DNA of 64,000 nt, from assembly GCF_020382885.2 (NCBI RefSeq), contig NC_058501.1:16444501-16508500 (forward strand), read 5' to 3'. The notes under the pieces were generated by a model, which saw only the letters and a list, made by a program, of their open reading frames with translations, was not told the origin of the DNA and searched no databases. The stretch is from Scatophagus argus (taxonomy: Eukaryota > Chordata > Actinopteri > Scatophagidae). Below are positions 5,401-51,412 of the stretch, in pieces (position 1 is the stretch's first letter; every line of letters starts with the position of its first letter). Position numbers and translations under genes: made by a program.

Positions 5401-5477
5401 TCAGTACTGGGATCATCGTTGCCGCTCCTAGCGCTGGAGGTTTGGCCCCTGCACCCCTATGTGCCAGTGAGTGGGAA

Positions 5478-20781: not shown

Positions 20782-23035
20782 TGAAGGCGTGGAGCAAAAT
20801 CAGGAAGAGGAAGAACAAAAGCTGGATTAAATTTTAAGACTTGGAATTTTTAGGGTGGCACGATGGACAGAATGGTGTCAAGAAAATGGTGATGATGATG
20901 AGGAAGCTGATGATTATGATGATGAATGTATAAGACAGGGACAAGGTTTGTGTAATGAAGCTCAGGTGTTTTGTTTTGTTGAGGTGTCAGCTCTTAAAAG
21001 TGAAAGGCAGAGAGAATAATTTAACAGATGAAAGATGTGACTTTTAAGAGTTTTGTTATTGGAGAATTGTATATTTTTATAATACTTAAGAAAAATTAGA
21101 GGGAGAGCAAATTTGAAGAATAATTTTGTATATTTTCTACATGATGAGGACATACAGGCGGGGCAAAGCTATGGTAAATATCTTTTTATTATAGATGAGT
21201 CAGGAGATGTTTAACAGGTGGTCAGCCATTGATTGGTATTTTTCAACTTAATTATTATAGTCAGGATGCAGCAGAAGAGGCGAGGACGCATGTAACAATT
21301 GTAATATAGAGAGCAAAAATGATCTTATAATCGTATAGTTCAACATTTTTGTGGATTTAACTCAAGCACTTAATTTTTTTTCCTGATATGTTGCTGTCAC
21401 AGGGAATGGGCATGACTGAGAGAGAGAGACAAGGGGAGGCAACATGTAAACAGTATAGCACTATCTTCAGCACTTGTCTTGATCAGTCTCGTGGGTTTTT
21501 TTTTTTTTCTTTTTTAAATACAACAGTTCCGTCCTTTTGAATTCAATTCCCCAACTACGTTAGTTCTTTGTTCTTTGAGCTTCACTTTATGCCTTTGGTA
21601 CATCTTTCTCTTGTCCATTCTTGTATCTTTGACTATTTTTTTCCCCCTCTGTGCCAGTTTGAGTGCTTTTAATCTGCTTTGGTGTTTTGTATCTTACCTA
21701 AGCTGGTGAAAGCCTGCTGTTGTGATGCCCTGGGTAACTCTGCTCCTCTTGATCCTCTCTGAATTATTGGGACTTTTCTCTTCCTCTGTTTCTATATCCA
21801 ACCGTTCTATTTCTGTCTGCTCTCACTCACGGTCAATCCCCTAACAGCTATGTGCAAACTCTCCCCACGAAATTGTTGTCCCCGTGTCTCTCTTGTACCT
21901 CTGTGGTACACGGAGTAGTTCAGATCTCACTGTTGTAATGTATTCTGAAGTAGCTGTTAATCATCCCAGTAAAATGCACATCTTTACTTTATTGTATTAC
22001 ATGAACACACTTTAATTAGAGTTATAGTTAGTGTGTGTGTGTGTGTGTGTGTGTGCGTGTGTGTGTGTGTGTGTGTTGGGGGGGGGTATATTAGATAGTT
22101 TGTATGTATTTCGGGAGACGGGTTCCCATTGGGCAGACTGGTGTTTCTCAGATTTCTGGGAGAAATTAAAGCCAAAATAACCCCTTGTTGATCCACAAAG
22201 CTTGTTGCTGTTTAGTGCATTTCTTTCAATGCTGCTCCTTCCTTACTGTTTTACTCTTCTTATTACTTTTTACTGTATCTATAAACTTCTCTGTGTACCC
22301 ACAACACCTACACAGGGGGATGGTACACTTTGTTATGTTCCTGGGGTTGGGTTGACCAGTCATAGAGTGTGATTTTTAATCCCCTTTAATGACCATGATG
22401 AATAGTTACCATTACTACTATTATTATTGTTATGATTATGATGATTATCCCTCTTGTTGTTGCTGTTCTATATTATTGAATGATTTTCTTTCTTTGGATG
22501 AACATGATCTGTTGCACCTTGAAACATCTTCGATCTTCATTGTTCCCTAGAAAGACAATTCAAAAGGAAAAACAAAAAAACCCTCACTGTCTGCTACGTG
22601 CATCCTGTCTCAGACCTCCAGACGTTACTCGGACACTGCTGCCGGCTTCGGGTTCTTTGACCATGGATTTCACGAGCACGGCTCCGTAACTTGATGTGAC
22701 GAACATGATGTTCATGCAGACTTACTTTACCTTTCATGATGACCTCTTCTGTTCCCCGGCGTTGTATGGACTATGCACACTATCAGTATGCTCATTGTCA
22801 GTTTAATTCAGTCTTCATCACCTCAGTCAGTGATTGTTTGCTCTCCCAACAGGATTTAGTCTCTAATATCCTCACACATGTGTTTGATAACTCTTTTAGT
22901 GACTCTAATTGAACTACAACTGCCCTGCTGCATCAGTGGTGTCCATGGTGCCCAGCCCTGTCAGTGCTGGTTATTTGGATGTAGTTGAGATTTTTCCAAA
23001 ACCACCAATAAAAGATTGTTCTCATTCACACTGCT
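20782..23035 (+). other. dbp 3' UTR with poly(A) signal
   Basis: A long 3' UTR follows the TGA at 20779-20781. It includes a GAT-rich patch (20885-20925) and a (GT)n microsatellite (22031-22076) followed by a run of ten G. The best poly(A) signal is AATAAA at 23007-23012, followed by a T- and GT-rich stretch. Confidence 0.55.
22031..22087. repeat. (GT)n microsatellite plus poly-G run
   Basis: About 23 GT units with one interruption, followed directly by a run of ten G, inside the dbp 3' UTR. Confidence 0.9.
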
Positions 23036-23888: not shown

Positions 23889-25418
23889 ATGGACTGTGCA
23901 CTGCTGCTGCTGTCCCTGTGGGCTCTGATGGGCACGGTGTCCCTGCAGGCTTCAGGTAAGACCACTGACTCTCACACCTATCATCCCTCACACCTGATCG
24001 CTATCACTGAACCTTGCAGACATAATGAATACAGCCAGACTGTGACTAAATACTGGGAATAAATGCAAAAAAGACCATAAGTGTCCTACTGAGTGTCCTC
24101 AGGCAGTGCAATTAAAGGACAGTTGGACTTTACTCTGCTAACCTGCTCTGTACACATGCATTTTATATAAACAAAACCAAAATATGAAGACGATCACATA
24201 ACCACAGCTAGCTGTCTGTGTATTTTATCCTTTAAACAGCTGCACTCAGTGCAGTCAGGACTAACTAAGACTGGGACTGTGCATTGTGTACATTTTAGAT
24301 GGTTGATATTCACAGACCACTGACTGAAAACCGGCTCAGCTGGCTCAGTCGTGTTTATGCTGAATTAAAATAAATTTCATGGGTCTGAATTACCGGTACC
24401 ACACAGTACATAGTCATGGTAAATGGGTTATATAATTTGGTGAAAGCAAATGCTTCTGTTGGATCATCGTTGACCTTTCACACACCCTCATAGATGTTTC
24501 TAGGTCTGATGATATGCAGTAATTATTTAGATGCTTGGTGTATGTACTGTACGCCATGTCTCCATGATGTCCTGGGACGATGGTGTGTGCATTAGCGCTG
24601 CACATGTGTGTTGACATGTGCTGTGGGCAGAGTGAATACAGTAGTACACATGTTTTCATTCTGAGAAATGAAAAATAGGGAACCTCCCCGCTATAAATGT
24701 TCTGGAAATCCAGGGTGCGTTGAAGTTGTACAAGTGGAACATTTGGTTTTATGATGTGTGATGGAATACGTATGGAAAGGTGAGGAGGTATTAAAGATAC
24801 TCTTGTATACTGTTCAAATAAGAATTGCATTTTTAGTTAATGTTTCTCCACTCGCACAGTAAACATCAGTCACGCCAGTTGGTGAGACGACAATCTCACT
24901 TTTCTATAAAAAACAAGATTGATAGCTGAATGGCAAAGAGTAATAAAGCCTGCCATCTAACTACTTACTCATCTGGCAACCTGGGTGGAAAATGTTTGCC
25001 CGGCCACCCACGCAAAATTTACTTTCCTTCAAACAGAAAACAAAGCAGAATTGGCAAACAAACTCTCAATTACGGCCCTCAGCGTTTGCGTTTTTTTATG
25101 AGGGGCCATGAATGACTGGAAGCAAACAAACAGACAATTGCTGTGATGGTGTGACAGTGTGTGTGGTATCACAACAGGATCGTGTCCAGAGAGGCTTCTG
25201 GGAGAAGAGAGGAGGAGGACGTGTCCTCGGCCCTGCAAAGCTGACAGCGACTGTGGCAACAAACGTCAGTGTCTGTGTGACGGCCAGTGTGGTCTCAGCT
25301 GTGTGGCTCCAGGTAACCATTTGTATGCATGTGTGGGCTCAGTTGTCACTGTGAACACCATTGTGGGCTCAGCCATTAAAAGTGTTTGTGTGCGTATACC
25401 CAGCTGTGCCAACATACA

Positions 25419-25453
<35 letters not shown>

Positions 25454-28400
25454 CTGGAAAATAGATTAAAAACCTTGCTTATGTACAAAATCTGGGCTCA
25501 GAATGTTTCCTATGTGAGTGCTGAACACAAGCTTTTCATTATGCCTGTGCATTGTAAAAGGGGCACAGTGCACAGACCCGTTCTCATTATACAACCTCAT
25601 TAGTGCCTTTTCAAAATGGTTTAGCCCTAAACATTTCATTTGTCTTGTACAAGGAACACTCCAGTACATTTTGTGAAATGTTCTGCTCCCTTACCACTCG
25701 CTTTCTCTCCTCTCTCTCCTCCTCAGGTCGAACTTGTCCCTGGCCTCTACCCCCTGGTGAAAACTCAGTGGCTCGCCTCCTCTCTCCCACTCACTCCTTC
25801 TCTGCCCTGCTTGAAGTGCACTGCAAGCCAGGATTCACACTGCCCAGTGGCTTGGATGTCACTATTCGCCGTTGTCAAGGTGACAGACAGTGGAGTGGGG
25901 ATGAGCCCATCTGCATAGGTGGGTTTGAGTTCAACAGAAAAGTTCTTATTCTGGTTCCTTCACTGCATATTCACACCACAAGCAATAAACATATGCAAGA
26001 ATTTTTCTGCAGTATTTATTATTTTTCTCAAACTAAATATTGCCTCTCTTGTGCATGTGTGTGCATCTGCATAGTTCATGTGTTTAGGTCAATGGCATGA
26101 TCCAGGATTAAACTTAGCTTTTACTTTGTTTTTATGCAAGACAGTCAGACAGAGTCAGACAGACAGCAATAGAGGGAAGGATGGAGAGAGAGAGAGAGAG
26201 AGAAAGAGAGGTATTCAGAAATGAAACCCCTCTGCGATTGTGTCGACTGAGACATTGCACAACTGGGACCTATTCTCCTCATCACCATAGCAACCAGAGC
26301 TTTAGTTGTTCATGTTGGCCATCTGAATATTTTACTGTGGAAGTGCTGATAAGTTGAAAGAGGAAAGAAAAGCTGAACACACACAGGTGTGTGCGCATGC
26401 ATGAATACCATATGGATGTCCATGTATATATGTAGCATGTGCACCGCAGCACAGAAAACTATGTTTTTAGTTACTATATACAATAGAAGAAAAACCCAAA
26501 TTACAACCTAAAAATGGAATTAGAAAAGATTTTAAGTTCATTATAACCTTCAGTCATGTTGTTTCTAAGCTCCTGTTGTGCTAGAGGCCTTCTCTTATAT
26601 TTGTATAATTCATATTAACCTGAAACAAACACAGATGAACAGGTTTGCTTGAAAGATGTACCTGCCTTATGTAGTCCATAGGGACCAGAACAGAGCTGCA
26701 GACACACATAAACAAATACAGGAGCAGCTGAAGCCAGTCCTTAGAGAAAACTCACAGGACTATCCAGTAATTACTGGTTATAACCACCGATGTGCCCAAA
26801 ACAATAATGTGGTTGAGCATTTGTGCATTCTGTCAGTCTAAATATAGAACAAAAAATGATAAATCTGAATAGGTGGCTCACAAATTACATTTTATCTAAG
26901 GCTGTGTAGCCCTATTTCTGCTATATCTGTGCTGTGTGGCTGCACAGCACTACACGAAGTAAAGCCATCAATAGTTCTTACTGTCTTGACACATTTCATC
27001 ATCATGCAGCACCAGGAAATATGGTTTTTAGTGACTGCTTGTGTCAGCCTGACAGCTCTGATAAATAACAATGCAATTTCAACTGCAAATGTCCGAGTCC
27101 TGCTGCATTAATCTCACACCTGGAGCTACAGTAAACGTGCTTTCTTAGGAATCCTCAACCCAGCTGGGTCCCTGTCTCACCCTCGAGATTTTGTATCTTT
27201 TCTAAGATGTGAAATGAGGATACGATTATCAGCCCTCTCGTGGAGTATCCTCCTGCTGAGAGACGGGCAGAAGGTAGGTGGGTTTTGAACGTGTGAGAGC
27301 GTTTGTATTGTGCGTCCTTTGCATGTGTGTTAGAGTGTGAGTCGAGCTCCTTCATGCCTGTTGAGAGGCAGTGGGCGGCAGATCACTGTCAAAGTGGCAC
27401 AAAGCTGCATGCACACAGTGTGAGCGTGAGTGTGTGTGAATGTGTGTTTATAGGAGAGAGGTACAGAGATTTTTTTTCTGTATACATTAGATGTGTATGT
27501 GTGTGTGGGGGGGGGCTGGATTGCACATGTGTTAGAGAGTTTCTGTGTGTGTTGTGTGTGCGTGTGTGTGTGTGTGTGTGTGGGCGACAGATCACAGTCA
27601 GGAGAGTCAGAGAGTTCTCTTGCTCATGCTGCTCCAGGCCTTTCTGTTCCCTGTTCTCCTCTCCTCTGCTCTCCTCTCTCATCCTCTTTTCCTCTCATCT
27701 CTTTCTCCTCTCATCCTCTTCCATCTGAGGCCTCCGATAAGGTCTCTCTCTCTCTACAATGGGAGCCAAGGACAAGCATGCAGCTTTAGGCTATTTGGTT
27801 TGTGATGTGCACAAGTGTGTGTGTGATTGTGGGAGAAAGACAGTAAAAGCACAACCTTTACCATCTCTGGCCTCAGTCAGATTGCTGTGTATTTAATGTT
27901 GTGGTTCATTCAAAATCACTGTGTTTTAATACTGAGATGAATTTGATATACCTGCTTCATAGCAGTTTGGTGCTGCAGCCTGTGTGGGCGGCAGCAGTAC
28001 GAGGCAGAAGAAGGGGCGATATGTGAAAACAGAACTCGGCTTCGGGCTCTCATCCGCAGCCAAACAGACTTGTAACTCTCCCTCTCCCATAGGTCCCTTT
28101 ACATTCTTATATTAACGTTTCTCAGTTTCAGATACCTAAGACAGCCCTCAGGCAAGAGCTGTCTCTGCCTTTCAAAGCCGCGTTCAGCTCCGAAACCCCA
28201 CATCTGATGGAGCCCAGGTCACTCCAACCTCTCTCCAAGCACCACTCTTGATATTTATATTTTCACGAGCATGAGGCACTCAAACTTCCAGGAGTGAACA
28301 GTGCCAGGTGTTATACAATCACAGATATTGCTGTGAGATGGGAGAGGTGTGGGGCGGCGTTTCACCTGCTTCTCGAACTTTGATTTATTACCTAAGAAGG

Positions 28401-31400
28401 GTTATTTCAACTTAAATAGAACAAGACACTGGGTGAAACACCTCTGTTGGTCACAAGCTAAATAGAAACAATTGGATAATACAAGTCAAACGAGGTAACA
28501 GGAAGGATGTGGCTTCCTCTGTCCATCTGTTTTTCTTCCCTGCTTCTCTTTATATTCTTTCACTGTTTCCCTCAAGTATCCTTCCTCCTCTTTTTGCTAA
28601 TGGCTGTTTTGGGTAAAATTAGGTCCACATTTATCAGTTACACACTAATTCTAATGTGCTTTCAGTGATTGTGTGGGTACATGTGGGGCTACACGTCTAT
28701 TGGGTTGTGTTTACTTCTATGAATCACAGTACACAGTAGACACACACCGAATGTTGCTGCATTTCTTTCTGAGGAGCTTTACACACTGCATACATCACTG
28801 TCACTATAGGACAGTGGTGGAAGAAATATTCACATGCTTTACTTCACAAAAGTAGTAATAGTACAGTGTAAATGATTTCAAGATTTTCCATAAGTACAGT
28901 AAAAGTACAGAATGTACTGAAAGTAAAAGTATTCATTATGTCGATATAGTGTTAAGACTATGATATATTTTTGTCACTTTAGGTCTCCCCATTTTTCATT
29001 TATGAGCAGTACATAAACATTTAACAGACAGTATTACACACTAAAGCTAAGTATTACTCATATTTTATTATTGCATTAATTATTACAGGTGCCTTAGTGC
29101 ATAAACAGCATTTTAATGCAGGGACTGGTTAAAGCAAAGCTCATCACTTTACACTGTATATATATATATATATGTTATGTATTTGTACTCTAATATTTAT
29201 TGTATTTACAGTCTTAATCTGCCATGTAACTAATAATTGTGAGGAGTAAAAAGTACAATATTTTCATCTAAACTGTGAGTAAAATATTGAACTGTTAAGT
29301 GGCATGATTTTAAAATACTAAAGTACAAGTACCTCAAAATTGTATTTAAACCTGCAGTGTGGAACTCGCGTCCCCCTACTTATTGAAGTGAGAGTAATTA
29401 AGAAACGGCGTCGACACACGCTGATAACGCGTCTGCAGGTGAGCTCGCTCGTGAAGCTGCACCGATGGTTAGCCATGTTCGTTCCTAGGCACTAGGCATT
29501 GTGTGAACCTGTGTGGCATGAATTTAAAAGTCTTGCGATCCAGTTATAAGTACTGCACTTGACTAAATGTACGCAGGCACATTCCACTACTGCTATGGGA
29601 AGATGTGTATTTTCTGTTGAAGAAATGGCATGAAAGTAATTGAAGGTTTTTCTGACGGTTTGGGTATTTTTGTCTTCGATGCAGGACCTCCTACTTGCTG
29701 TGGAGTATTTATTTATGTGTCTGTTACTTAAATAAACAATAAAGACAACAAAGTCTTTAACCTCCTGTCTTCTCTGACCTTCAGAGGCTCAACCACCTGA
29801 ACCAGCCGCTGTCCAAACCTGCCCTCTGCCTGAAGAAGTCATCAACAGCTTCAGCATCCAGGGCGATGCTACAGTAGGAACTTCCATCCGCTACAGCTGC
29901 CTGTCTGGGTAAGGGGGGGGGTTAAGGTTGTGAGTGCGTAGGCAGAGGCTATGAAAACCTGAAATGATGCAAAGGTAGAAACGGAGGAAGTGAGAAGATG
30001 GGGATGGAGTGTGAAGAGGAGGGAGGGAGTGGTGGAGGAAATGCTTCATTGCAGGAAAGGTGTTGGGGAACGATGGATGATGAGTGATGAATGTCAGGGA
30101 ATTCATTTTGATCTCCCAGCTGACGATCTCTCCATTGAACTAACTGGGTCATTACAGTCTAATCTTGTATTGACTCCCCTTTACACACTGACTCATCCAC
30201 AGGATAAGATGAGCCTAAGTGGATGTGTCAGCCAGAACTGTGCACACAACATTTAGACACTGTGAAAGAGAGACAGAGTGGAAAAGGGAATCATTTACAC
30301 CTTCTTTCATCACTTTATTTAGACGAAGCTCCTTAGCTGTCTGTACTGTAAATGTCACACTGCCATCTGTCTCCATCACTCTCTCCCTTCTCTCCTACAG
30401 GGCAGATATGGTGGGGAGCAGTGAAAATTTCTGCCTGGATAACCAGACCTGGCAGTATCCTCACCCCATCTGTAAAAGTATGTGTGCAGTAGTGAACTGT
30501 ATTGTACACTGGCTGTGTGTGTGTGTGTGTGTGTGAGCAGGCATGTGTGTTGCTTTGTCCTCATTCATCTTTCAAGAATAGCAGAAGACGGGTTGGTGGT
30601 TGGTTGCGTGTGAGTGACTGGACTGAGAGACCTGTGAGTTTATTTTGCGAGGATGTAAATTTATTCGTCGTGTGTGTGTGTGTGTGTGTGTGTGTGCAGA
30701 TATTTAAAAAAAGAGAGAATGAAAGGAGACAGACAGAAACACACAAACGTCTTCAGATATACAGTATGCCTTTTCAAGAGCTACTGCTCTGTTTCACGGT
30801 GCTTTTCTGTCACCTTGTGGTTAAACATGGAATTGCATGGCCTTTTCCACAGTGAGGAACACAGAGAGGCTGCTTCTCAAGTCACACTACATGGCTGGCT
30901 TTTGTTAGGGCAAAGGACAAAAGATAGAAGGGTTGTAGTAGTTTCAAGCTTCTGTTCTCATACCTTTATAGGTTATAGTAACTCTGCTCCTCTATCTTTT
31001 AAAGTTTAGTGGATATCCCGAATAATCAGACTGATAATCTTCTCCTGTCGCTCTCTTAGATGTGTACTGCCAGCCTCCTCGGGAGGTGGAGCAGGGCTAT
31101 GTGGTCGCCGTCCAGAAGACTGAGTATGAAGTTGGCTTTGACATCCATTACCTTTGTAAAAAGAACTTTCTGCTGGATGGACCCCAGAAGGTCACCTGCC
31201 TGTCGAATGGCAGCTGGAGTGCACCGCCTCCATATTGCAGAGGTGAGGGATGTTTCAAATGGCCACACCACAAATATAATGTATGCATTTGATGAGTTTA
31301 ACTCAAAATGTCAATCCTCTCCCAAAAAAAATTCAAATTCAAATTCAATGACACATTCAGCGGATGCAAAATACTAATATGCTAGTTACATTAACATCCA

Positions 31401-31908
31401 TACAAAATACACAGTCGTGAACACAGTGCACATGCACTCAAGAAACCACAAAGCATTGTCTGTTATATTTTATATTTTCATACCTTGTTCATCAACTTCA
31501 CAGCTCGCTGTCTCATCCCTGCTGAGCGAAGCCGTGTGGTGATTGGTGGAGTGAAGCGCTGGCCATTTGATGTTACAGACGCCATGGTTCCTCACGGAGA
31601 AAATGTGATGTTCTACTGCAAACACCCCGACAAGCAGTGCAGCTTCACTGCAACTCAGACCTGCTTTGATGGAAAGCTGCAGCCACCAGCCTGCTACCTT
31701 GGTAAAACCTGGACCACCCACACAAGCCGTCCTTTTCTTTTTCAGCACGTCAAGAACCCGAGTGCGGCGCTTGATGACAGTTGGAGACTTCTAGAATAAT
31801 CATGCATCTCCTCTTTGTTTTTCAGAGCCCACATGGTTGCAGTATAAACTTTTCCCTCACCGGCTGGTTTCAGAGATTGAAGCATGCGAGGCTGGTGATG
31901 TGGAGTGA
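23889..31908 (+). CDS. Secreted WAP-like / 3x sushi (CCP) / beta-2-glycoprotein-1 domain V-like protein
   Basis: Secreted, disulphide-rich protein of 352 residues. Exons: 23889-23955, 25178-25312, 25727-25918, 29785-29908, 30401-30477, 31060-31242, 31504-31701 and 31826-31908, with matching phases. The ATG at 23889 (aggATGg) gives a clean signal peptide (MDCALLLLSLWALMGTVSLQ). Exon 2 encodes eight cysteines spaced like a WAP four-disulphide core, except that the usual CC pair is CLC. Exon 3 is CCP1, exons 4 and 5 form a split CCP2, and exon 6 is CCP3 (each C...C...C...W...C). Exons 7-8 match APOH domain V: ARCLIP..., VMFYCKHPDKQCSFT..., CFDGKLQPPACYL, then a C-terminal tail with WLQYKLF and a final Cys. 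APOH itself has four CCPs and no WAP module. The last domain in APOH binds anionic phospholipid, which hints at lipid or complement/coagulation surface binding. Function is otherwise unknown, and I do not recognise an established gene name. Confidence 0.82.
25421..25449. repeat. (TG)n microsatellite
   Basis: Uninterrupted TG dinucleotides in intron 2 of the sushi gene. Confidence 0.9.
26183..26210. repeat. (GA)n microsatellite
   Basis: Near-perfect GA tract in intron 3 of the sushi gene. Confidence 0.85.
27544..27582. repeat. (TG)n microsatellite
   Basis: Slightly interrupted TG/CG/TG tract in intron 3 of the sushi gene. Confidence 0.85.
28812..29592 (+). mobile_element. Non-autonomous hAT-type element (MITE-like) with TSD
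   Basis: It starts with CAGTGGTGGAA (28812-28822) and ends with TTCCACTACTG (29582-29592), inverted repeats matching at 10 of 11 bases. The flanking 8-mers CTATAGGA (28804-28811) and CTATGGGA (29593-29600) agree at 7 of 8 and form a target-site duplication of hAT length. The body is rich in AGTAAAAGTA-type words, typical of a very common teleost element. No transposase is encoded. A CpG-containing block at about 29353-29545 interrupts the usual body and looks like a nested insertion. Confidence 0.8.
29156..29173. repeat. (TA)n microsatellite
   Basis: Short TA tract inside the hAT-type element. Confidence 0.7.
30513..30535. repeat. (TG)n microsatellite
   Basis: TG tract in sushi-gene intron 5, 35 bases after the exon 5 donor. 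Confidence 0.85.
30671..30696. repeat. (TG)n microsatellite
   Basis: Second TG tract in intron 5 of the sushi gene. Confidence 0.85.
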
Positions 31909-33450: not shown

Positions 33451-33774
33451 TTAGCAGGACGGTCTGATGTGAGGGGGAGGTGGGGGGGTCAAATGTGTCG
33501 ACCATCGTGTCAGACTGAGGAGTTAGGGGGGCACAGTCTGCTTCGTCCACAGGCTGTGAGAATTATGACAAATCAGTCAATATTGGCTTCTGCTCTAAAC
33601 TTGACCCCAATAAACACAATTGTGACATTGAGTTTTTACAGCCATCCCAGGATATTTGTTTAATTCCCTTGCTGCAATGAAACGTGTTTACTTGTATGCT
33701 AATTTTGCTACTCTGAGTTTCTAATTTCTTATTTTATTCCTGTTTTATAGAAATATAAATGAGTATGCCCCAAA

Positions 33775-36700
33775 ATGGATTCTCAGTTGGCTTCAGTCCT
33801 GACCAGTGGCAGCCTGAATGTCCAAAATGGCAGCCAGTGTGCAGAGGGATCAGGGCCAGTGACAGAGGTTTTTCTGGAACCAAAGGAAAAAACCTCATCC
33901 AGTACTGTACCAGGTAACCTCCAGTACTTCCCTGTCAAGGCAGCAGTGACCATCAGGCAAGACGCTCTATCAATCAATGGGAAAAAGCCAGAGGTGGGCG
34001 GGACTTGTAAGCCAGCCTCTCAGGAAACAAGCAAGATTGTCGGGTTCAGACAGCCAATCACAGTAAAGACTGGAGTGCCTGTGTTGCGCAGCCGACCAAT
34101 CAGACTCAAAATTGTTGTTCCCCCACAGCGCAGGAGGCCAATCACAAACTCTGCCATCAGCCTGACCAAAGACTTTCAGTTTAGAAGGCCTGTTTCAGTC
34201 TCATCTGGAGCAGTGATCACAGAAAAACACAGAAGTAACATCCAAGTATCTGCTGGCAAGAATGAAGGAGAAATCAAGGGAGTTACTTATCAACAGACTG
34301 AGGATGACAAACCAGATTCGTTCCATGAGACAGAGGCAGAGAGACTGGAAAAAATGTGCAAAGAGGGAGATGTTTTGGGTGCTAAAATCCACACTAATGG
34401 GACAGAATCTCCTTTAACCTCCAGCACTAATACATTTAAAATACTGAGCAAGCAAGGCATTAAAGAGGAAACCACAGAGGGAGAAACAGGGGAGAATACT
34501 CCCATAATTTTCAGAGAAATGGACTTCAAGTCCTGTAAGACGTTTGATAAGGAGGACATGGAGGAACAGACAGAACCACTGGACCTGAGTTTGCCCAAGA
34601 AAAGAGAGAGTCGAGAGAGGAGGTGTGGACGCTTTCTGGAAGATTGTGGCTGTGAGAGCTTGCTGATCATGGAGGTGGATGAATATGAGGGAGAAGGAGA
34701 CAGAGACATAGTAGAAGAGGACAACGAGGGGTATCAAGAGGACTCTGTGCTGCATGTGGACAGCACTGATACACTTGAAGACTCTCTCCTGTCTCCCTCT
34801 TTCTTTTCTACCTCTGTCTTTACCTCCCTCTCCTCTATAGACGGCGGCGACACTGACAACTTTCTTTTCATAGATGACCAGGGAATCCCGTATACTCTTA
34901 GTCCAGATGGACTCAAAGTGCCGCAACTCGATGCTTTCACGTCAGAGACTCCTCAGTCAGATCAGGCTAATTCAGCAGAGGTAGTAGGAAGGGGGTCGCC
35001 ACGATTGGCCCCCATAGCAGATCCGAGCCTCAGCCAAAGTTTAGATAATGCACTAAATGTACCTTCGGATGATCATAACCCCACACCAGCCCATGCGACT
35101 GACTCTCTATCTCTAGCTGTTGATCAGGCAAAGACTCCAGAAGTCTTCACAAGTTTGATTACAAACTCAGATGGCTCTAAGGCCGCAGAGCCAAGCGTTA
35201 CCTCTGTTCAGGCTAATGCTGTTCTGTCCCCTTCTTCTGAGATATCGGTCCCCACCCAGCCCATTCAGATCCTCACAAACCCTTCTACCAACACTCCGAT
35301 TCTCCTGCTGTCATCCTCCTCTTCCTCTTCTCAGTTCTCTTCGGCTCCAGTGGGTGTCACGCTTCCCTTTTCAGTTACCCAGACCGCATGTGCTACATCG
35401 GCCCCCATGTTCCTCCTCCTTTCATCTGTCCCTTCTTCCCCTGGTGACTCTGCCTCTGCCTCCACTCCTATGGCTGTCCTTGACCCCTCAACTGGCCAGT
35501 TGGCCCAGATCACAGCAGCCTCAGCCCCAGTCTCCCTCTCTTTGCCCTCTGGTCAAGTCAGCACCCTGGGATCACCTCTGCCTCCGGTGTCTCACCCCAT
35601 CATCAGACTGAGCCCCAATAACCCCCCTGTCATCCTGTCGGGAGTGAACAGTGTAAACTCCGGCTCTGTCCTCACCTCTCTTATGGCTCGTTCATCCCCC
35701 CCGGCTCTTCAAAACGACAACCACAGCAGCTCGATTCCCCTCCTTCTTTCTCAAATCAGCTCTTCCGATTCAAATTCTGGAAGTGAAGCCATATCTGTTG
35801 AAGAAGTCCCAAATGAAAACAACAAGCCATCGACTTCTACAGCATCCTCTCCGCACCCACAGGCTGCTAGTTTGTCCTATGACCCCTTAGCTCGGCCTGG
35901 TTCAGAGGCCCAATCACCAGCCTCAGAGCCCCAATTCGACCCGTCTGACCTGCACTCACAACATTTACCTCTGGATGACCATCTTTACTTCTCCAACTCT
36001 GCAGCTCCTCCCTCACCTGCCAGCGAACTCAGTCTCTCCTCTGGTAAACTCAAGCCCCCTGACCCTCTCGATCCACTGGATCCTCTCTCTCCAGCGGCGT
36101 CACCCAACGCTATGGGCCCTCGCAGGGTGCTGTACTGCCAGCTGTGCCCGCGGGTCTTCTTTTACCTCTCCGACCTTGAGCGCCATGCCATCACTCACTC
36201 TCAGAAGAAGCCCCACGTTTGTCAGCAGTGCGGCAAAGCCTTCAAACGCTCCAGCCATCTGCAGGTCAGTGTGAGCTAATCACACCGTCGTTTCATCAGC
36301 AATATAAGTAAAAACACAACTTTCTTGAACAGATGTTACAGATTACGAGTGCTGTGTTCAAGCTGCGAAAATAATCCTGGCATTTGATCACCTTTTAAGC
36401 TGATATTTTAGCAAACAGCTGCTTATATATGCACCCAGCAGAGATGGGGCAACATGAGCATTTGTTTGGAGTCATGTTTGTGGCCACCTGATGAAGAAGC
36501 TCGGTTCACTCGCCTCGTAGCTTTGTCTTAGTCTTCTCCATCTCCAGAGGGATAAATCCGGCTCTTTCGTCGCTAAATGTTCCGCTCTGCTCGACAGCTA
36601 GTCACTAACTGTGTCTGTTTATCATTAGGCGATGGGCAGGTAGCATTCATTAATTTTTAAGAGGTTTTCTGTAAAGAGTTAAGAGGTATTCTGAAAGCAG

Positions 36701-37279
36701 CTGCCAGCATGATGATGAAAGCACTGAGAGTGAACCAAAACAGTAAAAGTTTCTAATAAATCACACCACCGAGCTGAAAGGCGCTACTAGGCTCCAGGTG
36801 AACTGCTTCGGTTTGGTGTCCTTGTGGATTCATCACTACGAGTGAACTCTTTCAGGACAGTAAAAGTGCTGAGTGATATTTTCACCAATCTTTTATTTAG
36901 TGTTTTCTCTTTTCCTCAACAGAGACACAAGCACATTCACACAGGCCAGAGGAACTTTGTGTGCCCCATCTGCGGCAAACGCTTCAGGGAGGCCGGTGAG
37001 CTCCAGCGCCACCAAAGGGTCCACACGGGAGAGAAACCCTACCAGTGCCAACTTTGCCACACGCGCTTTGCCGAGCGCAACACGCTACGTCGACACACCA
37101 AACGCAAACACCCTTACCACCAAGTAGCCATGGAAATGCTGAACGAGAGAGGAGGAGGCGGTCGAGGAGCCGGAGGAGGCGGCGGCGGCGGATCTGGAGT
37201 GCAAGAGCAGGAGAGCGCTGAATGGTACAGCTCTACTGTATCTAATTTGGATAACTCAGAGTCTGAGGGGGAAACTTAA
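33775..37279 (+). CDS. znf581: ZNF581-like C2H2 zinc-finger protein with a long N-terminal region
   Basis: Probable nuclear transcription regulator, 948 residues in two coding exons (33775-36264 and 36923-37279, phase 0). Four C2H2 fingers lie at about residues 787-808, 814-836, 842-864 and 870-893. Their order and wording (CxRVFxYxSxLxRHxITH, [10 protein letters not shown], [15 protein letters not shown], then HTKRKHP) match human ZNF581. So does [12 protein letters not shown] (363-374) against the LLIDTQGVPYT segment of that protein. Human ZNF581 is only about 200 residues, so most of the N-terminal region here has no counterpart in it. That region contains PLDLS (268-272), a classic CtBP corepressor motif, an acidic stretch (about 304-330) and long Ser/Pro/Thr tracts. 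The intron splits finger 2 after SSHLQ. The tail is Gly-rich. Two out-of-frame ATGs (33761, 33767) sit just upstream of the start. Confidence 0.82.
36265..36922 (+). other. Intron within zinc finger 2 of the znf581-like gene
   Basis: The donor CAG|GTCAGT follows codon 830 and the acceptor is TTTTCCTCAACAG (AG at 36921-36922). The phase-0 join restores the finger as HLQ-RHKHIH. If the intron is retained, the frame stops five codons in (TAA at 36277-36279). Nothing else is recognised in it. Confidence 0.85.
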
Positions 37280-40278: not shown

Positions 40279-41224
40279 GAAGGAGAGGAGGAAAGGGGGG
40301 TAACAGGTGTTAATCAGAAAGGGAGTCCAGGCTGCAGAGGAGAGGGTGTAGCTGTGTAGGGGAACCAATTACATCACCTTTCCCTCAGTAATGTGCCATG
40401 CTGTCAGCGCAGTCTGTGTTTATATATGTGTATGTTACGCGTGCGTGAGTGTGTGAAAAGCATTTACAGGGCAGGAGAGGAGAAGCTGTCAAAGGTGAGG
40501 TTTTTTAACGATGAAAAAACACTGTCGTATTGCGTAAATGGCACCTGAAAGAGCTGTCCTTCGGTAACCACGTATTAAATTAAGGTTCCCCTTCGTTTTG
40601 TGTTCCATTAGTTGCTCCATTTTGTTCCATGGCAACCATAATAGGCCCAAGCGGTGCCATCTCTGCTCTGTGTTCTCTGATTAGTGGATCTCGACGTCAG
40701 GGACTTTCTTTCCACATCCAATAAAATGGCAGCAACCCCCTGTTTTTCCCTCCTGTTTTCCTGTCGCATGCAGCTCTCTTCCTGTCCTTGTCGTAAAGAC
40801 TTCCTTCCTGCATTGTGCCCTCCTTTCCTGTCCAACTTTTGCAGTCTCCGCTGCCTCACCCAATCTACCTCTCTTCTCTGTCTCCCCCTCTCTATGACCT
40901 GCTGAACCAGCACACACCGGCCTGTCTGTCAAATAGAGAGAACAGGTGCTCCGGCAACGACCTCACTTCCCCCACTTCTTTTCCCCACTCTGCAGCCCAA
41001 AGGCACACACACACACACACACATGCACATATAGACAGCATGCAAACATAGGCAAACACTCTCCTATACGTTCAGCCAATCAGCTTTGAAGGATTGACCA
41101 GCAAGGTGAAACTTTGGTGATTTTGCTTGGCACCAGTGCTGATACATACTGTAAACTATATGCTGACAGACACTGACTTACTGACCTGTGACTCTCTGTG
41201 GTGTCGTACACTCATACACGCATT

Positions 41225-43097: not shown

Positions 43098-46000
43098 ATG
43101 ACGCTGTTGGCCTCTGAGAGGTCGCTTCTCATCCGGAACAAGTTCCGCTCAGGTGAGGATCCTGGAGTATCAGCTTGGGCCAATTAAAGGAGAGGAGGAT
43201 TTATTTTCCCACAGCAACGTCTTTACATCTCAGGCATAATTGGCAACATTAGCATCGATATGTAGAGGTGAAATGTACCTTAAAGTTATTGGCTGGTCGG
43301 TCACGCTGTCCGTCATGTGATCGACTGAGTGAGGGTATTGATCATGGTGAATAGATTTAATGATCGCTGCCCACAGACAGGGACGTTTTGAATGGACGTG
43401 AGGACAGCTGAGCTCGAGACATGGCACTTTAACAACAACATTTTGTTGATATACATGTTAAAAAAAGGCAGTTGGCCTTTGACAGTCCGTTTTATTTAAA
43501 GACCCTTAGAATACTTGCTTTCAAATTGAATTGAAAAGAATACAAAAAATTAATTTTCATTTATTGAAAACATATTAATCAAATGATTAAAACCTTCAGG
43601 AGTCAACCAGATCGCTGTGACAAACAGCACTGAACAACCCTCCTATCACTGCATAATCCAAGTTTCTACAAGTTGTAGCGCCTGCTCTTGTGTTCCCATG
43701 CAGCTGTTGTTAACGGCTGGTAAAATAGACAGGCGAGGAAACGACATGGAGACAGTCCCCTAGGTGTACAAACACCTGCTGGAAAACGTGATTCTTTAGA
43801 GCAGCTGCTCTGCTGGAAATCATGTATGTACATAGCAGAGCTGGAGGAATACACAAGTCTGTGAGAACATCAAACTGATGTGAAATAAACATGAGCTTTT
43901 GTCAGCTAGCATATGATTTGTTTAATTGTTAACAAATCTGCTTTTAACATTTTTGTTGACCTTTGACACTGGCGATCCCTTAACCAAAATGCATCTATGA
44001 GCTGTGAGTTCAACCAAAAGAACAAGATGATTCTTTTGGTTCTTTAATTTAAATGATTTGACATCTGAAAAGTTGAGTATTAGTCAGTATTTTTTTAAAA
44101 AAAAAAATGGTTTGGTCTTAAGACTCAGTTTCAGTTTGGGAACCACTATGTGATCCAGCATTAAAAGTCTAATGCGTAGGATTTAGGGGCTGAAATGGAA
44201 TACAATATTCAGAGTTATATTTTCATTGGTTTATAATCATCTGAAACTACTAATTGCTGTGTTTTCATAACCTTAGAATGTGCATCTTATGTGTAGACGA
44301 GTTTTTTGCACGTTGGTTTGAGACGAGCGGTGACGAGTTGGTTGCAATCAGCAAACAGACTGCAGGAAGCCACAGAGTCCTGCACAGTGGGCCTTTAAGG
44401 GGGTTTGAAATGGAGTTCATGACTTGTATTGAGCCTGCAGTTAAAATACAAAGTCATCGTGGCAGCACTGCTTCCCTAACTTGTTATGACGTCAGAGTAT
44501 GCCGCATTAATCTGCTTTAAATCTACATTTTTTACTACATTAAACTTTTGTTTTGAGTTGTCAGAGAGGCAGGAGAGCAGGAAGAATATACTTAGCAGCC
44601 AGAACGAGGATGACGTGAGGAGAAGGGGATGTATGAGAGGCTTGTGGAGAGAGCGGGACAGCTGAAGGGGGGATGGGACCAACAGAAATAGACATACTGA
44701 GAGATAAATAGTCACTGCCCTCAACCCCCTGTGCAGTCCTCCCCTCCCTTTCATCAGGTCTCAGGTCTTAAAACTCACTGGGGGGGACTCTGTGTAACAG
44801 GCCCAGCCCTGCCCTGCTTCGACCGTTTGTGTGTGCACTGAATGCAAATGTGTGTGTGCAAATATGTGGTGTGTAGATGTGTACAAGCATGCAGGGAGAT
44901 ACATAATCTACAAGTGCTGCAAAGTCGTGAGGTAACATAAGTCACAAGGCCATATCATTTAACAGTGATGCTGCTGTTTTGTGTTGCTCAACTCTTACCT
45001 TTCCACGTCAGCGTCTTTTCTGTTCCCCCCCGCATAATTTTGTCCTTCAATGAGAAATCAAACTAACTCGCTGATCCATCAGTTTAATGTGTGATTTTTC
45101 ATCATTTTTTTTAACAGTCTCTCTTCTTGTCTTTCAGTCCTGCAATTGAGGATTCAGAACCGAAGGCAGAGTGAGATCAATGCAGACCCTGGTTAGTCCA
45201 TGTGTATCATTAACATTGTTATTGATCCATTCATGCTATGACTGCAGGTTGGGTTTCATATTATGATCTTCAAGTCACCTCTTTTCACTGACAGATGATT
45301 GCTTATTGATTAGAAAATAACTGTGTAGGCTTTACTGTACGGATCAACTTTTACTTTTCTTTGATTTGATTTTTGGAGTTTAAGTTTTCTATTTGATTAT
45401 GTGCTTTTATAACCTCTGACAGTGCAGGAGCCTGCTTTAGTTGGATGAGAGGGTTAATGGTTAGTGTCATATGCCTCATCACAATTAAAAACAATTAAAA
45501 TAACTTTAATGCAAAGAACAAGGGGCAACATTTTCATTATGAATGAGTGGCAACAACAAGAATGATAACCATGATATGCAAAACGTGTTTCCACAATAAT
45601 AAGTCTGCACAAGGCAAAACACAGCAGGTATCAGAGGTGTTAAAAGAAGTACGTGCATAAAGGCAACACCTGCAAAAATAACAATATACTTTTACTATCA
45701 GGCATTACCTAAAGATAAGGGTGTAAATAAAATGTGCTATAAGCACAAAATACAGATACATTCAACCAGATTTGTGCAGCCCATTTTGTACAGACTAGTC
45801 TAGACGCAAGAAATAATTTTATCTCAGATACTTTGTCGACAGGCACGGCGGCTTGCTTTAGTTCCCACCTCACTGTCTGAGGCTGAAGCAGGTTGCACAA
45901 GCAAGCGGCACTGCACTTTCTGATGCCTGCCAACACAAAAGAGCGCCAGAGATGCTCTGTGCTGTAACGTGGAGGGATGAGCTGAAGGCTTAAAGTGCTT

Positions 46001-49000
46001 TGTTGATGAACTGGTTCAACTGAGTCGCTCCTCTACTTGGCTAACCTTCTGTAAAAGAAATAAAAATCCTGCCGTTGCCATTTAATCTTACTATCACAAC
46101 TTGTCTGTGTCCATAGGCTTGAAATCTTCTTGTCCCTCTCAAAAAGCAGAGAAAGACCAGAGTGAAGCTCTGGTGAGTATGATTCTGTTTCTCAATAATA
46201 TCCAGCAGCATGACATTGCCACGCTATAGATCAAATATGATTTTGATGTTATAAAAGTCGAATTGTCATGTCAAGACATTTTCCCTCCACATATGTCATG
46301 TATTTTTAAAAGAAATTATATTAATTTGTGCTACTTACATATAGCTATAAGTTCATAAGAAATTAACATGAATTGTGACACATTTTACTATAGGGCAATG
46401 TTTTCCCCCAACATTGAATGGGTCACATGGTGTCTTGTGTGGATTTATTTCACCTTAAAAGAGCTAATTTGTACTGGTGAATCTCTGAAGCGTAGGATCC
46501 ATGTGTTCTTTCAAAGACCTTGCAAATTCGTTGGGGGAAACACTGTTGTAAATGAGTATTTCTTTAGGCTACATTGACATTAGAGTATAGTTGTATTTAA
46601 CATTCCCCTGAATGAACTGCATTGTAATCTCTGGGCCCTGGTTGTTGGTTTGACCTGCTGTTTCCTGATGCAGCGTCTAACTGACGATGGTGCCGCACAG
46701 AAGTTGCCCCCTAGTGGTCTGAACACTGAAACTGCAGAAGGTGATGCCCTGCCTACAGTAATGTTGTTGTCTCCTTCCTGCTTTACCCTGTCACACTCCC
46801 AGCACAGTGCACAGTAACATATTTCTCTGCCTCGCACTTTCTTTCTGCCTGTATTCTATCATATCTGTGCTGCTCGCCGCTCTCTGTTGTACAGTAGCTG
46901 TGTGAGCAAATGGAGTGCGTAAATCTGGCAGTGGGCTCGGTGTTTTATCAGCTGTCAGTTAAATAGAAATGTGACCTTGTTGCACACTGTAACTCTGCAT
47001 TTTAAGCAGCCTGTAAACATATCAGTGATTGACAGCGCATGATAAGCCCGCCCATCCACGGATCATCATTTTCTGCCATTACTGACATCTCTGTCTCTCT
47101 CATCTCTCTTTATCTCTCCTTCTCTCCTCACCCTCAAACCCTTTAACTTGTAAAGACTATTATTATAATACCTGACTTTTCAAACAGTCTGTTTTCCCAA
47201 ATGGTCATTTTCTGCCCTTTTAAAAATGTTGTGGGTGTGTGTGTGTTTATATCCAAGGGAATACATCTCCCTATGGGCTGGAGTGTTTATTATTTTTTGA
47301 TGCCTCTGCTGGTTATATTGGTACTGATAGCCTGTGGCAACACTGTTGAGCATGCTCACATCACGTATGATCTGAAATCCTGTCGTCTCTCTCCCTCCAA
47401 TCTCCTCTCGTCTCTCTCTGTTGATCTCCCTTCTGTCCCCCTCTCTCCACTTATCTGCACCCCCCTGCAACCCACCCACAGAGAGGACTGTGTGTGGCGC
47501 CCAGAGGCAGAAGAAGGCTCGCCAGGCGCAGGACTTCACTGAGAGCATCCAACGTCCTGGACCTGTGGAGCAGCAGCGCAAACACACGCTGCCCCTGGAG
47601 AGCTGTGAGTCAACATGCATCCACATGCACCGGCACACACAGACAGAGTCACAAACATATTTTTTTTTCCAGTTTCCTCCAAATCTCTTCTGTGCCTCTC
47701 CTGACCTTACCTCCTTTCACTTTCCATTTCCTCAGGTTCTGCCTCTTTCCCTCTGTCGACTGATGTCTTCGAAGATGACATCTCCTCCTGCTCCTCGTCC
47801 TCGCCCACTGACCAAAATGGCGTTCACCAGTCACCGACCTTTTCTTCATTGCCGGGGCTTCCAGGTGACCAATTACTTAGTGACTTCTCAGCTGTGGGCC
47901 CGCCCCTGAACCACAGTCCCTGTCGTGCTCAGGTGAAGAAATAACACTTTACGTAAAACAAAGACTCTTGCAAACACATTAAAGTGAATATTAAAAGACT
48001 GGTGCATTTATAAATAGCTTCATATTTCAGCTATAATAATCTGATATTCTGCCTTCAGTCTGGCTTGGCACTGCTCCCGGCAACCGAGGGCATGAGACAA
48101 CCAATGAGTGTAACACTGGGTGAATCAAACTCCATGGCAACAACTGGGAGACCAAATGGGATGTATCTGACCTCTCAGACCACACCTCTGCTGCCAAAGG
48201 TAATGTGGGGTCAGTGCATGCTAAAAAACAAAAAACAGTGCTATCAGATTTACTCTTATTTTTTTCCTGGCTCATTTAAATTTTATAAGAGTCCTTCTTT
48301 TTGTTCTGAACATTTTCCTGACTGCTCAAAATAAAATTATAATATCAAGCACACAAGCAGATAAATGTGGTAATATGACATTTGCATTCAGAAAAACAAT
48401 GTTTAGATTGTGTATGTGTGCTTACAGTATTCACAGCAGGTATACAACATAAAAGATAAAAGAGTATTGTAGAGGTCTTCAACCTAACAGGACGGTCACT
48501 CCTCTGTTCTGTCGAACACAATGCTGCGCTCTAAGCTGCTCTGCATTCATTACTGTCAATTTGCACTTCTAGGGGAGCTCAGTATTTGCCCTGTAGGTTA
48601 ACAGATTCATACACAAGCAGCGTGGCTGTATGTCAGAACCAGCACATGCTGTCATCTGGAGATTTGTGAGGTATTTGTACATTTCATGTAAGAACTTAAC
48701 CTTGACATGGGGCAAATACTGTCTAACAACATGAAACGAGTTGACATTTTAGCTGATATATTTTATATGCTCTGGATATTACTCACTGGAACCACAGTAT
48801 GGTTGCAGTTTTAGAACATGTGGAAAATATTTGTTTTTGCAGACAGCTCGGCCTCCCAGTCCCACCTGCTCCTCCCTGCCGACCTCCCTGAACTTCAACC
48901 ATCTCCCCCGCCCACGGAAACCGCGGGACTCCAAACCCAAAATGAAGAAACTCAAGTATCACCAGTACATTCCTCCAGATCAGAGAGGAGCGTCTATGAA

Positions 49001-51412
49001 TGGAGGTACCAATGTATATGTATACTATTTTCCACATTTATTCAAAAATTCCTTTCATTTGTCCAATCAAGGCTTACTCTTGTGACAAAAAATGTGTTTA
49101 TTTCCAGTGGGAGGAGCTAAACAGAAGAGCCCTACCCCTACCCAGTCTTTAGACCCAGCCTATTCTCATCTGCTGAAGCAGCAGCAGGTCTTCCTCCAGC
49201 TACAAATCCTCCAGAACCAGCAGCAGCAACAACAACAGCAACAGCTACAACCACAACAGCTCACTGTTGTGTCCAGGTAGGGAAACGCATTGCTGTTGAT
49301 GCACTGCCAGGTTATCCAACTTAACAAAACTATTTCTGCTTTATCAATGAGATGTTAGTCCTCAGATAGTTTAGGTGAGCTAATGCTTCTGTAATTCCTC
49401 CAGTGGAGACCACAGTGATCTTCTGAAGTCCTCTGGAGCCATGCCTGTGAATCCCCAACCTGTTGCCGCCACAACGAACCACACACCAACGGACACAAAC
49501 CCTATATCGAAGCCTGAGCTCCTCCCTGCGAATCTTGTTGATCTAACCGTAAGAAATGCATGAAAGTGCTCAAAGACAGAAATGCTCATTTTTATTTACA
49601 GTCCATGTTGAAGACAAACTGTTAAGTATCCTTTCCTCTTCTATTGTGACCTCCTCTCTTTTCCTCAGGTGTCAGAGTTGCGGCAGCAGTTGCGTAAGCG
49701 TGGACTCCCTGTCTCCGGGACCAAGCCCGCTCTGTTGCAGCGTCTCCGCCCCTTCCAGCTTCCCCATTCTTGCCTCACCCCTGCTCCCCTCTCCCAGCTG
49801 GGTACCAGCCTGGAGCCCAACACCCCCTGCCTTCCAGTGCCACCCAGTCAGAGCCCTGGCTCAAGCTGCAGCTCTGGACTTGACTCGCCCAGCAGTAGCC
49901 CGAACCAACAGATGTATATGCCAGAAAGGGGAATTCCTAATGGGATTCTCAGCGATGCTCCAAACGGAGTTCTGAACGGAATTCCGAACACGGTGCCAAA
50001 TGGTTTCTCCAGTGCTCCGTCAGTCAGTTTGCCAGGTGAACAGTGTGGTCTCACCAACACTGTCTTCCTGGCTCCTGCTAGCCCTGCCTCAGCAACTCCA
50101 AGTCCCAGTCTACCCATGTCTTCCTCCTCTCCCCTACACTGTGGGACTCCCTGGAGAACTGAGAAACAGCAGCAGCAGGAGCTGAATGTGGAGCTGGAGA
50201 TGAGGGAGAGGCTGAGGAACAGGCCCAGGGACCGCTCCACTAACACCGACAACGAGGTGATGAAGACAGGCTCAGGTCTTTGGTATAAGATGTGTTGGAG
50301 ACAAGTTCATTTAAAAGGGTAAATGTTTCCAGAACTGCAGCCAGTAATGCTGTTTTTCTTATTCTTCCAGTCTTGTGGAGGATCCCTTCATCCATTCCTG
50401 CAACAGGATCCTGGATGCCCTAGACACAAGCCTGAATCAGATGCACAGACAGAACTGTTGTTTACACAGGTAAACACACAATATACACGGAGCTTGGATA
50501 ATCACCTTCCAATTGTACACTAAAGATCACACCCTCAATCTATAAAACTGGTCAAACACGAGAACATAGTGTCATCACCACTATCTCTCAACTAATGTGT
50601 TCTTATTTTCTAAACAGGCATTTTGCCAACCGTGTGATGTGATCGGCAAGGATTTTGAGCTGCCAGTGCAGATTACAGCAAGTCCTGCTCAGACCTTGTC
50701 CATTGCTCGCAGCTTTGAGGAAGAACTACAGGAGGCGATTCAGAAAGCACAGGTTAGACTTTGTAGGTGAACAGGGAGAGATCAGGAAGAGTTCCATTTG
50801 TACAGTGGGATTCAAGTGTTTTTCCGTTCTCTTGGCCACAGATGGACCTTCACCAGTCCATAGATGACATTCTGGATGAGCCTCTAACTTGTGTCAGTGA
50901 GTATCCCATAATTAATAAGCAATCAATTTTGAATGGCACTAATATTTCTTTCAGTGTCTAATCCTTTTTCTGTCTTTCTTCGAGGCTCTGTCAGTGTCTC
51001 CGATCATAAATCCCCTGCTCGCTTAGTCCCCGACCCATCGCCTCCTTCTCCTCTACCTCAAGCGGATCAGTCCCAGGCCTCCCAGAAACACAAGGATGAC
51101 AGCTACCTTCCCTCACCGCTTTGCTCCTCTCTCTTGCTAGAGCTCCCTCCATCTCCTGCCATAATAAACCCTAGCCAGGTGATCCCAGCTCCTCCCCCGC
51201 CGCCCATCTGCACCTCCCCTCTGTCGTCCACTGGGAAGTCACGGAAACGTCGGGCTCCGGCACTGTTTGATGCTGCCGACTGGCTTGAAACGCTGACGTC
51301 TGGCCTCCACCCTCTTACTCCACCGACAGCTCCTTTTGTTGAGTCAGACTTCAGTCTGGATTCAGATCTGAATGTCAGTAGAGTGTTAGATCTAATGATA
51401 GAGCAGTGGTAA
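43098..51412 (+). CDS. Myocardin-like SRF coactivator with degenerate RPEL motifs
   Basis: Probable nuclear coactivator of serum response factor, 824 residues. Exons: 43098-43152, 45138-45191, 46117-46172, 46674-46740, 47482-47604, 47736-47932, 48059-48199, 48843-49005, 49108-49276, 49404-49548, 49669-50256, 50371-50469, 50618-50752, 50842-50896 and 50985-51412; all phases close. The start MTLLASERSLLIRNKFRSVL is almost that of myocardin. The basic box KPKMKKLKYHQYIPPDQ is at 262-278, the Q-rich region at about 303-340, and the SAP domain at about 387-420 (VSELRQQLRKRGLPVSGTK). The C-terminus (DWLETLTSGL...DLNVSRVLDLMIEQW) resembles myocardin's ...QQW ending rather than the MRTF ending. RPEL1 and RPEL3 (RPGPVEQQRKHTLP) lack key residues, RPEL2 is absent, and the leucine-zipper region is cut short by Pro. 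It is a divergent family member; whether it is a myocd duplicate or a separate ancient paralogue needs a tree. Confidence 0.87.
43153..45137 (+). other. Intron 1 of the myocardin-like gene
   Basis: Intron of 2.0 kb, AT-rich, containing a teleost dispersed repeat (44164-44400). No extra exon was recognised. Confidence 0.7.
44164..44400 (+). repeat. Teleost dispersed repeat (AGGATTTAGGGG type)
   Basis: Blocks TAGGATTTAGGGGCTGAAAT, GGAATACAATATTCA, TTTTCATTGGTTTATAATCA and GTTTTCATAACCTTAGAATG occur in the order I associate with a frequent teleost interspersed repeat. The element class is not resolved from sequence alone. Confidence 0.55.

Follow-up and report, generated by a model that had tools for sequence, protein, structure and literature searches.

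Loss of the actin-sensing RPEL motifs is an ordinary and expected feature of MASTR. MASTR is a MEF2 coactivator sharing the MEF2-binding motif of myocardin, and the MRTFs are without this motif (PMC3362810). One description gives MASTR no SRF-binding domain (PMC4526231), and in another it is not known to bind SRF (PMC8806183). The introduction of the first paper nonetheless names MASTR among the SRF-binding coactivators. Furthermore, the myocardin family, MASTR included, has been paired with both MEF2 and SRF factors (PMC5167519), and MASTR has been reported at a hybrid SRF/MEF2 site, together with MEF2 (PMC6726840). Among the matches listed in our literature search there was no paper on fish mamstr; the frog MASTR paper (Meadows 2008) may already describe the SRF-contact basic box discussed below. 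Here, we analyzed a window of 64,000 nucleotides from Scatophagus argus (contig NC_058501.1, C9 in the following, 16444501-16508500), which carries a myocardin-family gene with such a box. This gene is very likely the fish orthologue of MAMSTR, encoding MASTR, the fourth member of the myocardin family, and its product is probably a nuclear MEF2 coactivator without actin control. It is best read as a MAMSTR orthologue by its locus, one that differs in having kept the SRF box.

Inspection of the splice sites gave a single gene at 43098-51412 on the forward strand, with 15 predicted exons, GT-AG borders and one open frame, running from the ATG at 43098 to the stop codon TAA at 51410-51412. The final acceptor decides between 824 and 834 amino acids for the predicted product, with exon 15 starting at 50985 or at 50955, respectively. 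The initial annotation had covered 43098-47604, which holds exons 1-5 only; their positions and reading are confirmed here. The exons are:

43098..43152, forward strand, exon 1, MTLLASERSLLIRNKFRS, matching the part of myocardin that holds the MEF2-binding motif (MBM)
45138..45191, forward strand, exon 2, eroded RPEL1, VLQLRIQNRRQSEINADP
46117..46172, forward strand, predicted exon 3, without similarity to the family exon 3, possibly not real
46674..46740, forward strand, predicted exon 4, without RPEL2, possibly not real
47482..47604, forward strand, exon 5, RQKKAR as a basic remnant, and the eroded RPEL3, QRPGPVEQQRKHTLP
47736..47932, forward strand, exon 6
48059..48199, forward strand, exon 7
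48843..49005, forward strand, exon 8, basic box (B1) KPKMKKLKYHQYIPPDQ, where MRTF/MYOCD make contact with SRF
49108..49276, forward strand, exon 9, Q-rich stretch AYSHLLKQQQVFLQLQILQNQQQQQQQQQ
49404..49548, forward strand, exon 10, running into the SAP domain (LLPANLVDLT)
49669..50256, forward strand, exon 11, SAP domain VSELRQQLRKRGLPVSGTKPALLQRLRPFQ, with a leucine-zipper vestige close to the 3' end
50371..50469, forward strand, exon 12
50618..50752, forward strand, exon 13, terminating in SFEEELQEAIQKAQ
50842..50896, forward strand, exon 14, MDLHQSIDDILDEPLTC
50955..51412 (alternative start 50985), forward strand, exon 15, C-terminal region with KSRKRR, DWLETL...LDLMIEQW and the stop codon TAA

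No similarity to exons 3-4 of the family was detectable in predicted exons 3 and 4, and since these add up to 123 nt (56 + 67), joining exon 2 to exon 5 also keeps the frame. For these reasons, they are possibly not real coding exons, and could be skipped, alternative or wrong. Exons 1-2 share 22 of 28 residues with the myocd of the same genome and thus carry, by sequence, the N-terminal MEF2-binding motif, which in cardiac MYOCD spans amino acids 1-27 (PMC9900090).

A protein search of the genome (570.7 Mb, 48 contigs) placed 15 matches to the myocardin family at six loci; apart from the window there are five, and all five carry RPELs. Four are MRTF genes, each with all three RPELs (C21:5.84, C16:7.92, C21:6.34, and C16:16.24 Mb). 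In their motif letters they resemble each other as two pairs, each with a member on C21 and one on C16, and tree support for the pairs is 52/25 and 74/86. The fifth is the canonical myocd (C21:3.127-3.151 Mb), recognized by MTLLGSEHSILIRSKFRS, RPEL1, RPEL3, a two-exon leucine zipper, and a C-terminus ending in MDLHLEHW. Hence, the window gene is not the sole or main myocardin of this genome, and we rejected its identification as the genome's myocd. The initial annotation had seen in it a gene further along the path taken by myocardin; with a separate canonical myocd on C21, and with the MAMSTR-type neighbourhood described below, this claim is not supported. As an observation on the canonical myocd itself, no recognisable RPEL2 exon was found between its RPEL1 and RPEL3 exons (C21:3132575-3138725; no Ns in 18 kb), and the RPEL2 of this fish's myocd may, from its sequence, also have been lost or strongly changed.

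A tree was calculated from the basic box, Q stretch and SAP domain (82 of 101 columns, 7 rows, no MAMSTR protein among them). Some rows were partial: the MRTF at C21:5.84 contributed basic box and Q stretch only (no SAP was seen in the DNA examined), and mouse MRTF-A contributed B1 and SAP only. The window gene pairs with myocd (88/97), with a branch length of 0.42 vs about 0 for myocd. At 75% identity across 81 columns, myocd is its closest relative within the genome. A tree of these sequences cannot separate a MASTR from a duplicated myocd.

The gene was filed under MAMSTR by its locus, because it does not show the trait of having no SRF-binding domain; this trait is one paper's description of MASTR, not a criterion for naming or tracing the family. 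Human MAMSTR lies at 19q13.33, near RASIP1, DBP and RPL18. Neighbours of all three types, the DBP type presumably, surround the window gene. The rpl18 gene lies on C9, 261 kb upstream, and all four matches to ribosomal protein L18 fall at that one locus. A PAR-type bZIP gene is found inside the window (15026-20800, forward strand, bZIP from 20566), presumably DBP-like rather than TEF or HLF; Pfam found no family here in the three reading frames scanned, the bZIP being in another frame. Further along C9, 293 kb downstream, is a gene that carries RA and DIL domains. Over 39 ungapped residues, it matches RASIP1 at 23 and RADIL at 16, and of 12 residues at which RASIP1 and RADIL differ, 8 agree with RASIP1 and 1 with RADIL. 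A search for the branched-chain aminotransferase family gave no match anywhere in the genome and is therefore uninformative as a neighbour test. Exons 13-14 point in the same direction as the locus, scoring 77 against a provisional human MAMSTR fragment, vs 29 against the own myocd. The gene also shares the lack of functional RPEL motifs, which is a family feature of MASTR. As the gene more likely belongs to this sister lineage, its RPEL loss is expected, not new. FUT2/MAMSTR has been reported on chromosome 19 with a RASIP1 signal (PMC7744576).

Several points weigh against this assignment. The PDB matches of the bZIP are VBP, NFIL3 and C/EBP chains plus one construct, and in the RA domain the PDB bit scores tie (RADIL 82.8 vs RASIP1 81.2). 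Glycogen synthase, a further gene expected near MAMSTR, was matched on C22 and C16, not on C9. The C-terminus separates less clearly than exons 13-14 (71 for the provisional MAMSTR fragment vs 62 for the own myocd), and the N-terminus is closer to the own myocd (106) than to the provisional MAMSTR fragment (85). These fragment scores are leads only, since the human MAMSTR fragments are provisional. The gene model is a prediction from genomic DNA. In the tree, the 88/97 fork is below the strong mark of the tool, which no inner branch attains. Finally, the kept SRF box contradicts the description of MASTR as lacking an SRF-binding domain (PMC4526231).

Some of these points would also suit a second, fast-evolving myocardin, a copy of myocd from the teleost duplication that has lost its actin sensors. 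Such a copy would explain why myocd is the nearest in-genome relative and why the N-terminus resembles it more than the provisional MAMSTR fragment. We nevertheless consider this unlikely. Both MRTF pairs, though modestly supported, span C21 and C16, and a duplicate of the C21 myocd would thus be expected on C16 and not on C9, where the gene sits beside rpl18, a DBP-type bZIP gene and a rasip1-type gene. In addition, exons 13-14 are without the YEDAVKQ and DELLDVLI of myocd.

Judged from its sequence, the putative MAMSTR orthologue is without any working RPEL. Pfam reported none at E<=1 in the 824-residue protein (the form scanned, rather than the 834-residue one, with scanner filters that drop most matches above E ~0.1), and none of the 25 matches listed as best candidates in an RPEL search of the genome fell inside the window. 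The solved RPEL domain of MRTF-A (2yje) aligns across the entire N-terminal region (E 1.1e-4), which establishes homology of this region and gives the positions of the lost residues. For scoring, we used a profile of 17 motifs, three each from the four own-genome MRTFs and mouse MRTF-A, and two from the own myocd, whose RPEL2 was not found and is missing from it. Scored with their own gene left out, these 17 motifs reach 43.2-62.8 bits. On the full profile, the window RPEL1 has 6.6 bits, vs 49.0-62.4 for the RPEL1 of six relatives, including mouse MRTF-A. The window RPEL3 has 0.8 bits ungapped and 18.5 with one gap (gap penalty 4), and the best RPEL start in predicted exons 3-4 has only -19.2. 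The best scores of 2000 shuffles averaged -13.7, with a 99th percentile of 0.7, so that the ungapped RPEL3 is barely at the shuffle limit. Measured against this limit, both RPEL1 and RPEL3 appear to be genuine RPELs that have eroded.

The initial annotation had described RPEL1 as being without its RP...EL core. The loss of EL stands, and in the window RPEL1 (VLQLRIQNRRQSEINADPGLKS) it extends to the subsequent GIMP. The missing RP does not serve as a criterion, because the intact RPEL1 of MRTF-A, VLQLKLQQRRTREELVSQGIMP (RRTREEL), has no RP and no P either; the absent P is thus not the lesion. Its account of RPEL3, with RPGP retained and the EL core gone, is confirmed, as is the absence of RPEL2 from exon 4, with the qualification that predicted exons 3-4 may themselves not be real. 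Searched with hidden Markov models of the family exons 3 and 4, the three forward frames of the interval from window exon 2 to exon 5 gave no match >0 bits. The control of these models on an MRTF locus gave 43 and 63 bits, and since that locus was among the five training sequences, it demonstrates a working search and nothing further. An exon structure that restores the RPELs, named beforehand by the initial annotation as what would overturn it, thus found no support in the forward frames searched, and the idea of an overlooked RPEL2 exon in this interval was rejected. The gene does not have the three G-actin-binding RPEL motifs that characterize MRTF-A/B. From the motif loss, its product would be free of RPEL-mediated G-actin binding and insensitive to actin, in line with what the annotation had proposed.

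The remnants of RPEL1 and RPEL3 could still bind G-actin weakly, which would make the protein damped, rather than blind, to actin. They score above the shuffles (6.6 and up to 18.5 bits vs the 99th percentile of 0.7) and RPGP is retained. However, the EL core is gone from both, and the conserved leucines and the RPxxxEL core have been reported as required. Moreover, myocardin, which has better RPELs, has been reported as always nuclear (both in PMC9900090). We therefore regard residual actin binding as decidedly improbable.

Two features of the putative fish MASTR go beyond the initial annotation: the leucine zipper is eroded too, and the kept basic box is odd for a MASTR. The SRF-contact basic box KKLKYHQYIPPDQ and the Q-rich stretch are both retained. 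The box is identical to the B1 box of mouse Mkl1 as quoted in PMC3933235, where alanine changes at four B1 residues lower typical SRF targets, and the Acta2 reporter is not induced. Compared with five paralogues, its 13 codons have 4, 7, 6, 4 and 8 silent changes and 0, 0, 1, 1 and 0 replacements. Both replacements are changes of the paralogues, and the window box has none of its own. In this single genome, the pattern looks like constraint.

The SAP domain was recognized by Pfam (PF02037, 45.3 bits, E 6.2e-12) and by its match to 2kvu (E 4.9e-11). Its codons differ from those of myocd by 15 silent and 7 replacing changes, and from those of three MRTFs by 9/14, 12/11 and 10/14 (silent/replacing). 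The leucine zipper that should follow is a vestige. It scores 40 against the myocd zipper and 37 against the MRTF zipper, values reached by 4 and 13 of 1000 shuffles, respectively, and the zippers of myocd and MRTF score 118 against each other. As myocardin may acquire actin sensitivity through pairing with MRTFs (PMC4526231), the loss of the zipper would also cut this route. A gene in decay, with neutral motif losses, would fit the long branch (0.42 vs about 0 for myocd) and the degraded RPELs and zipper, but is very improbable given GT-AG borders and a frame that is uninterrupted across the 15 predicted exons, a basic box kept with only silent changes on the window side, and the excess of silent changes in SAP relative to myocd (although relative to the three MRTFs replacements are about equal or more), and a pseudogene was rejected on the open frame and the kept box.

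The motif content, the open frame, the paralogue set, the neighbourhood, and a basic box free of replacements on the window side are established here; we infer that the gene is transcribed and that its product is nuclear and binds MEF2 and SRF. In the mechanism we propose, MEF2 would recruit the protein to muscle genes via the N-terminal motif of exons 1-2, and the C-terminus would supply activation. The coactivator would be nuclear and not retained by G-actin, and the basic clusters in exon 8 and the KSRKRR near the C-terminus could act in its import. With no working RPEL and only a vestige of the zipper that family members use for pairing, it would escape actin control both directly and via MRTF partners. 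Because the basic box and the Q-rich region, the SRF contacts of MRTFs and myocardin, are retained, it may also act through SRF, which would be a second input through these two elements. ARP5, whose binding site in cardiac myocardin is close to the MEF2 motif (PMC9900090), could continue to regulate it.

Tentatively, and as a possibility that we hold well short of conviction, fish MASTR could be a dual-input coactivator, which binds MEF2 and SRF, has neither an actin sensor nor a pairing zipper, and drives muscle SRF targets irrespective of Rho-actin signalling. It would then be an intermediate between the four-paralogue ancestral state and mammalian MASTR, and actin sensing would have been lost before SRF binding. 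Until now, MASTR has been presented as the member of the family that does not bind SRF. A fish MASTR whose SRF-contact box is complete and which has no actin sensor uncouples two properties that are joined in the MRTFs, and offers a natural experiment on whether muscle can use an SRF coactivator that is free of actin control. A tempting misreading is corrected as well, as the loss of RPELs in a myocardin-like fish gene need not signal a new kind of myocardin.

The window was also searched for binding sites of both partners. CArG boxes were not in excess (3 found vs 4.7 expected). A perfect one, CCATAATAGG, lies at 40636-40645, which is about 2.5 kb before the start codon. MEF2-type sites numbered 9 vs 4.6 expected, a count reached by 5 of 100 shuffles; intron 6 has one of them, and the 5 kb preceding the gene have none. 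Elsewhere in the window, all on the forward strand, an uninterrupted frame of 1594 residues, in which Pfam recognized nine C2H2 zinc-finger stretches, spans 5379-10160 and is probably a single long zinc-finger exon, and 33763-37276 holds a second C2H2 zinc-finger gene, apparently of at least two exons. A WAP domain, a sushi repeat and the fifth domain of beta-2-glycoprotein-1 are found at 25147-31796, in separate reading frames, and could come from a single gene with an unusual domain set or from two or more genes.

Compared with the known systems, the window gene shares with the MRTF-A/MRTF-B type genes on C21 and C16 the basic box and Q stretch (4/4) and the SAP domain (3/4, with none in the DNA examined for the fourth). 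These genes differ in having three intact RPELs (4/4) and a SAP domain of the VAELK type. With the own MYOCD (C21:3.127-3.151 Mb), its nearest tree row, it has in common the exon 1-2 motif region, the basic box, the Q stretch and the SAP domain, whereas myocd retains RPEL1, RPEL3, the leucine zipper, and a C-terminus with YEDAVKQ, EWLDLTPP and MDLHLEHW. With MASTR, it shares the N-terminal MEF2 motif region, the SAP domain, the absence of a working RPEL, and a locus near a DBP-type bZIP gene, a rasip1-type gene and rpl18. It differs from MASTR in keeping the SRF-contact basic box and the Q-rich stretch.

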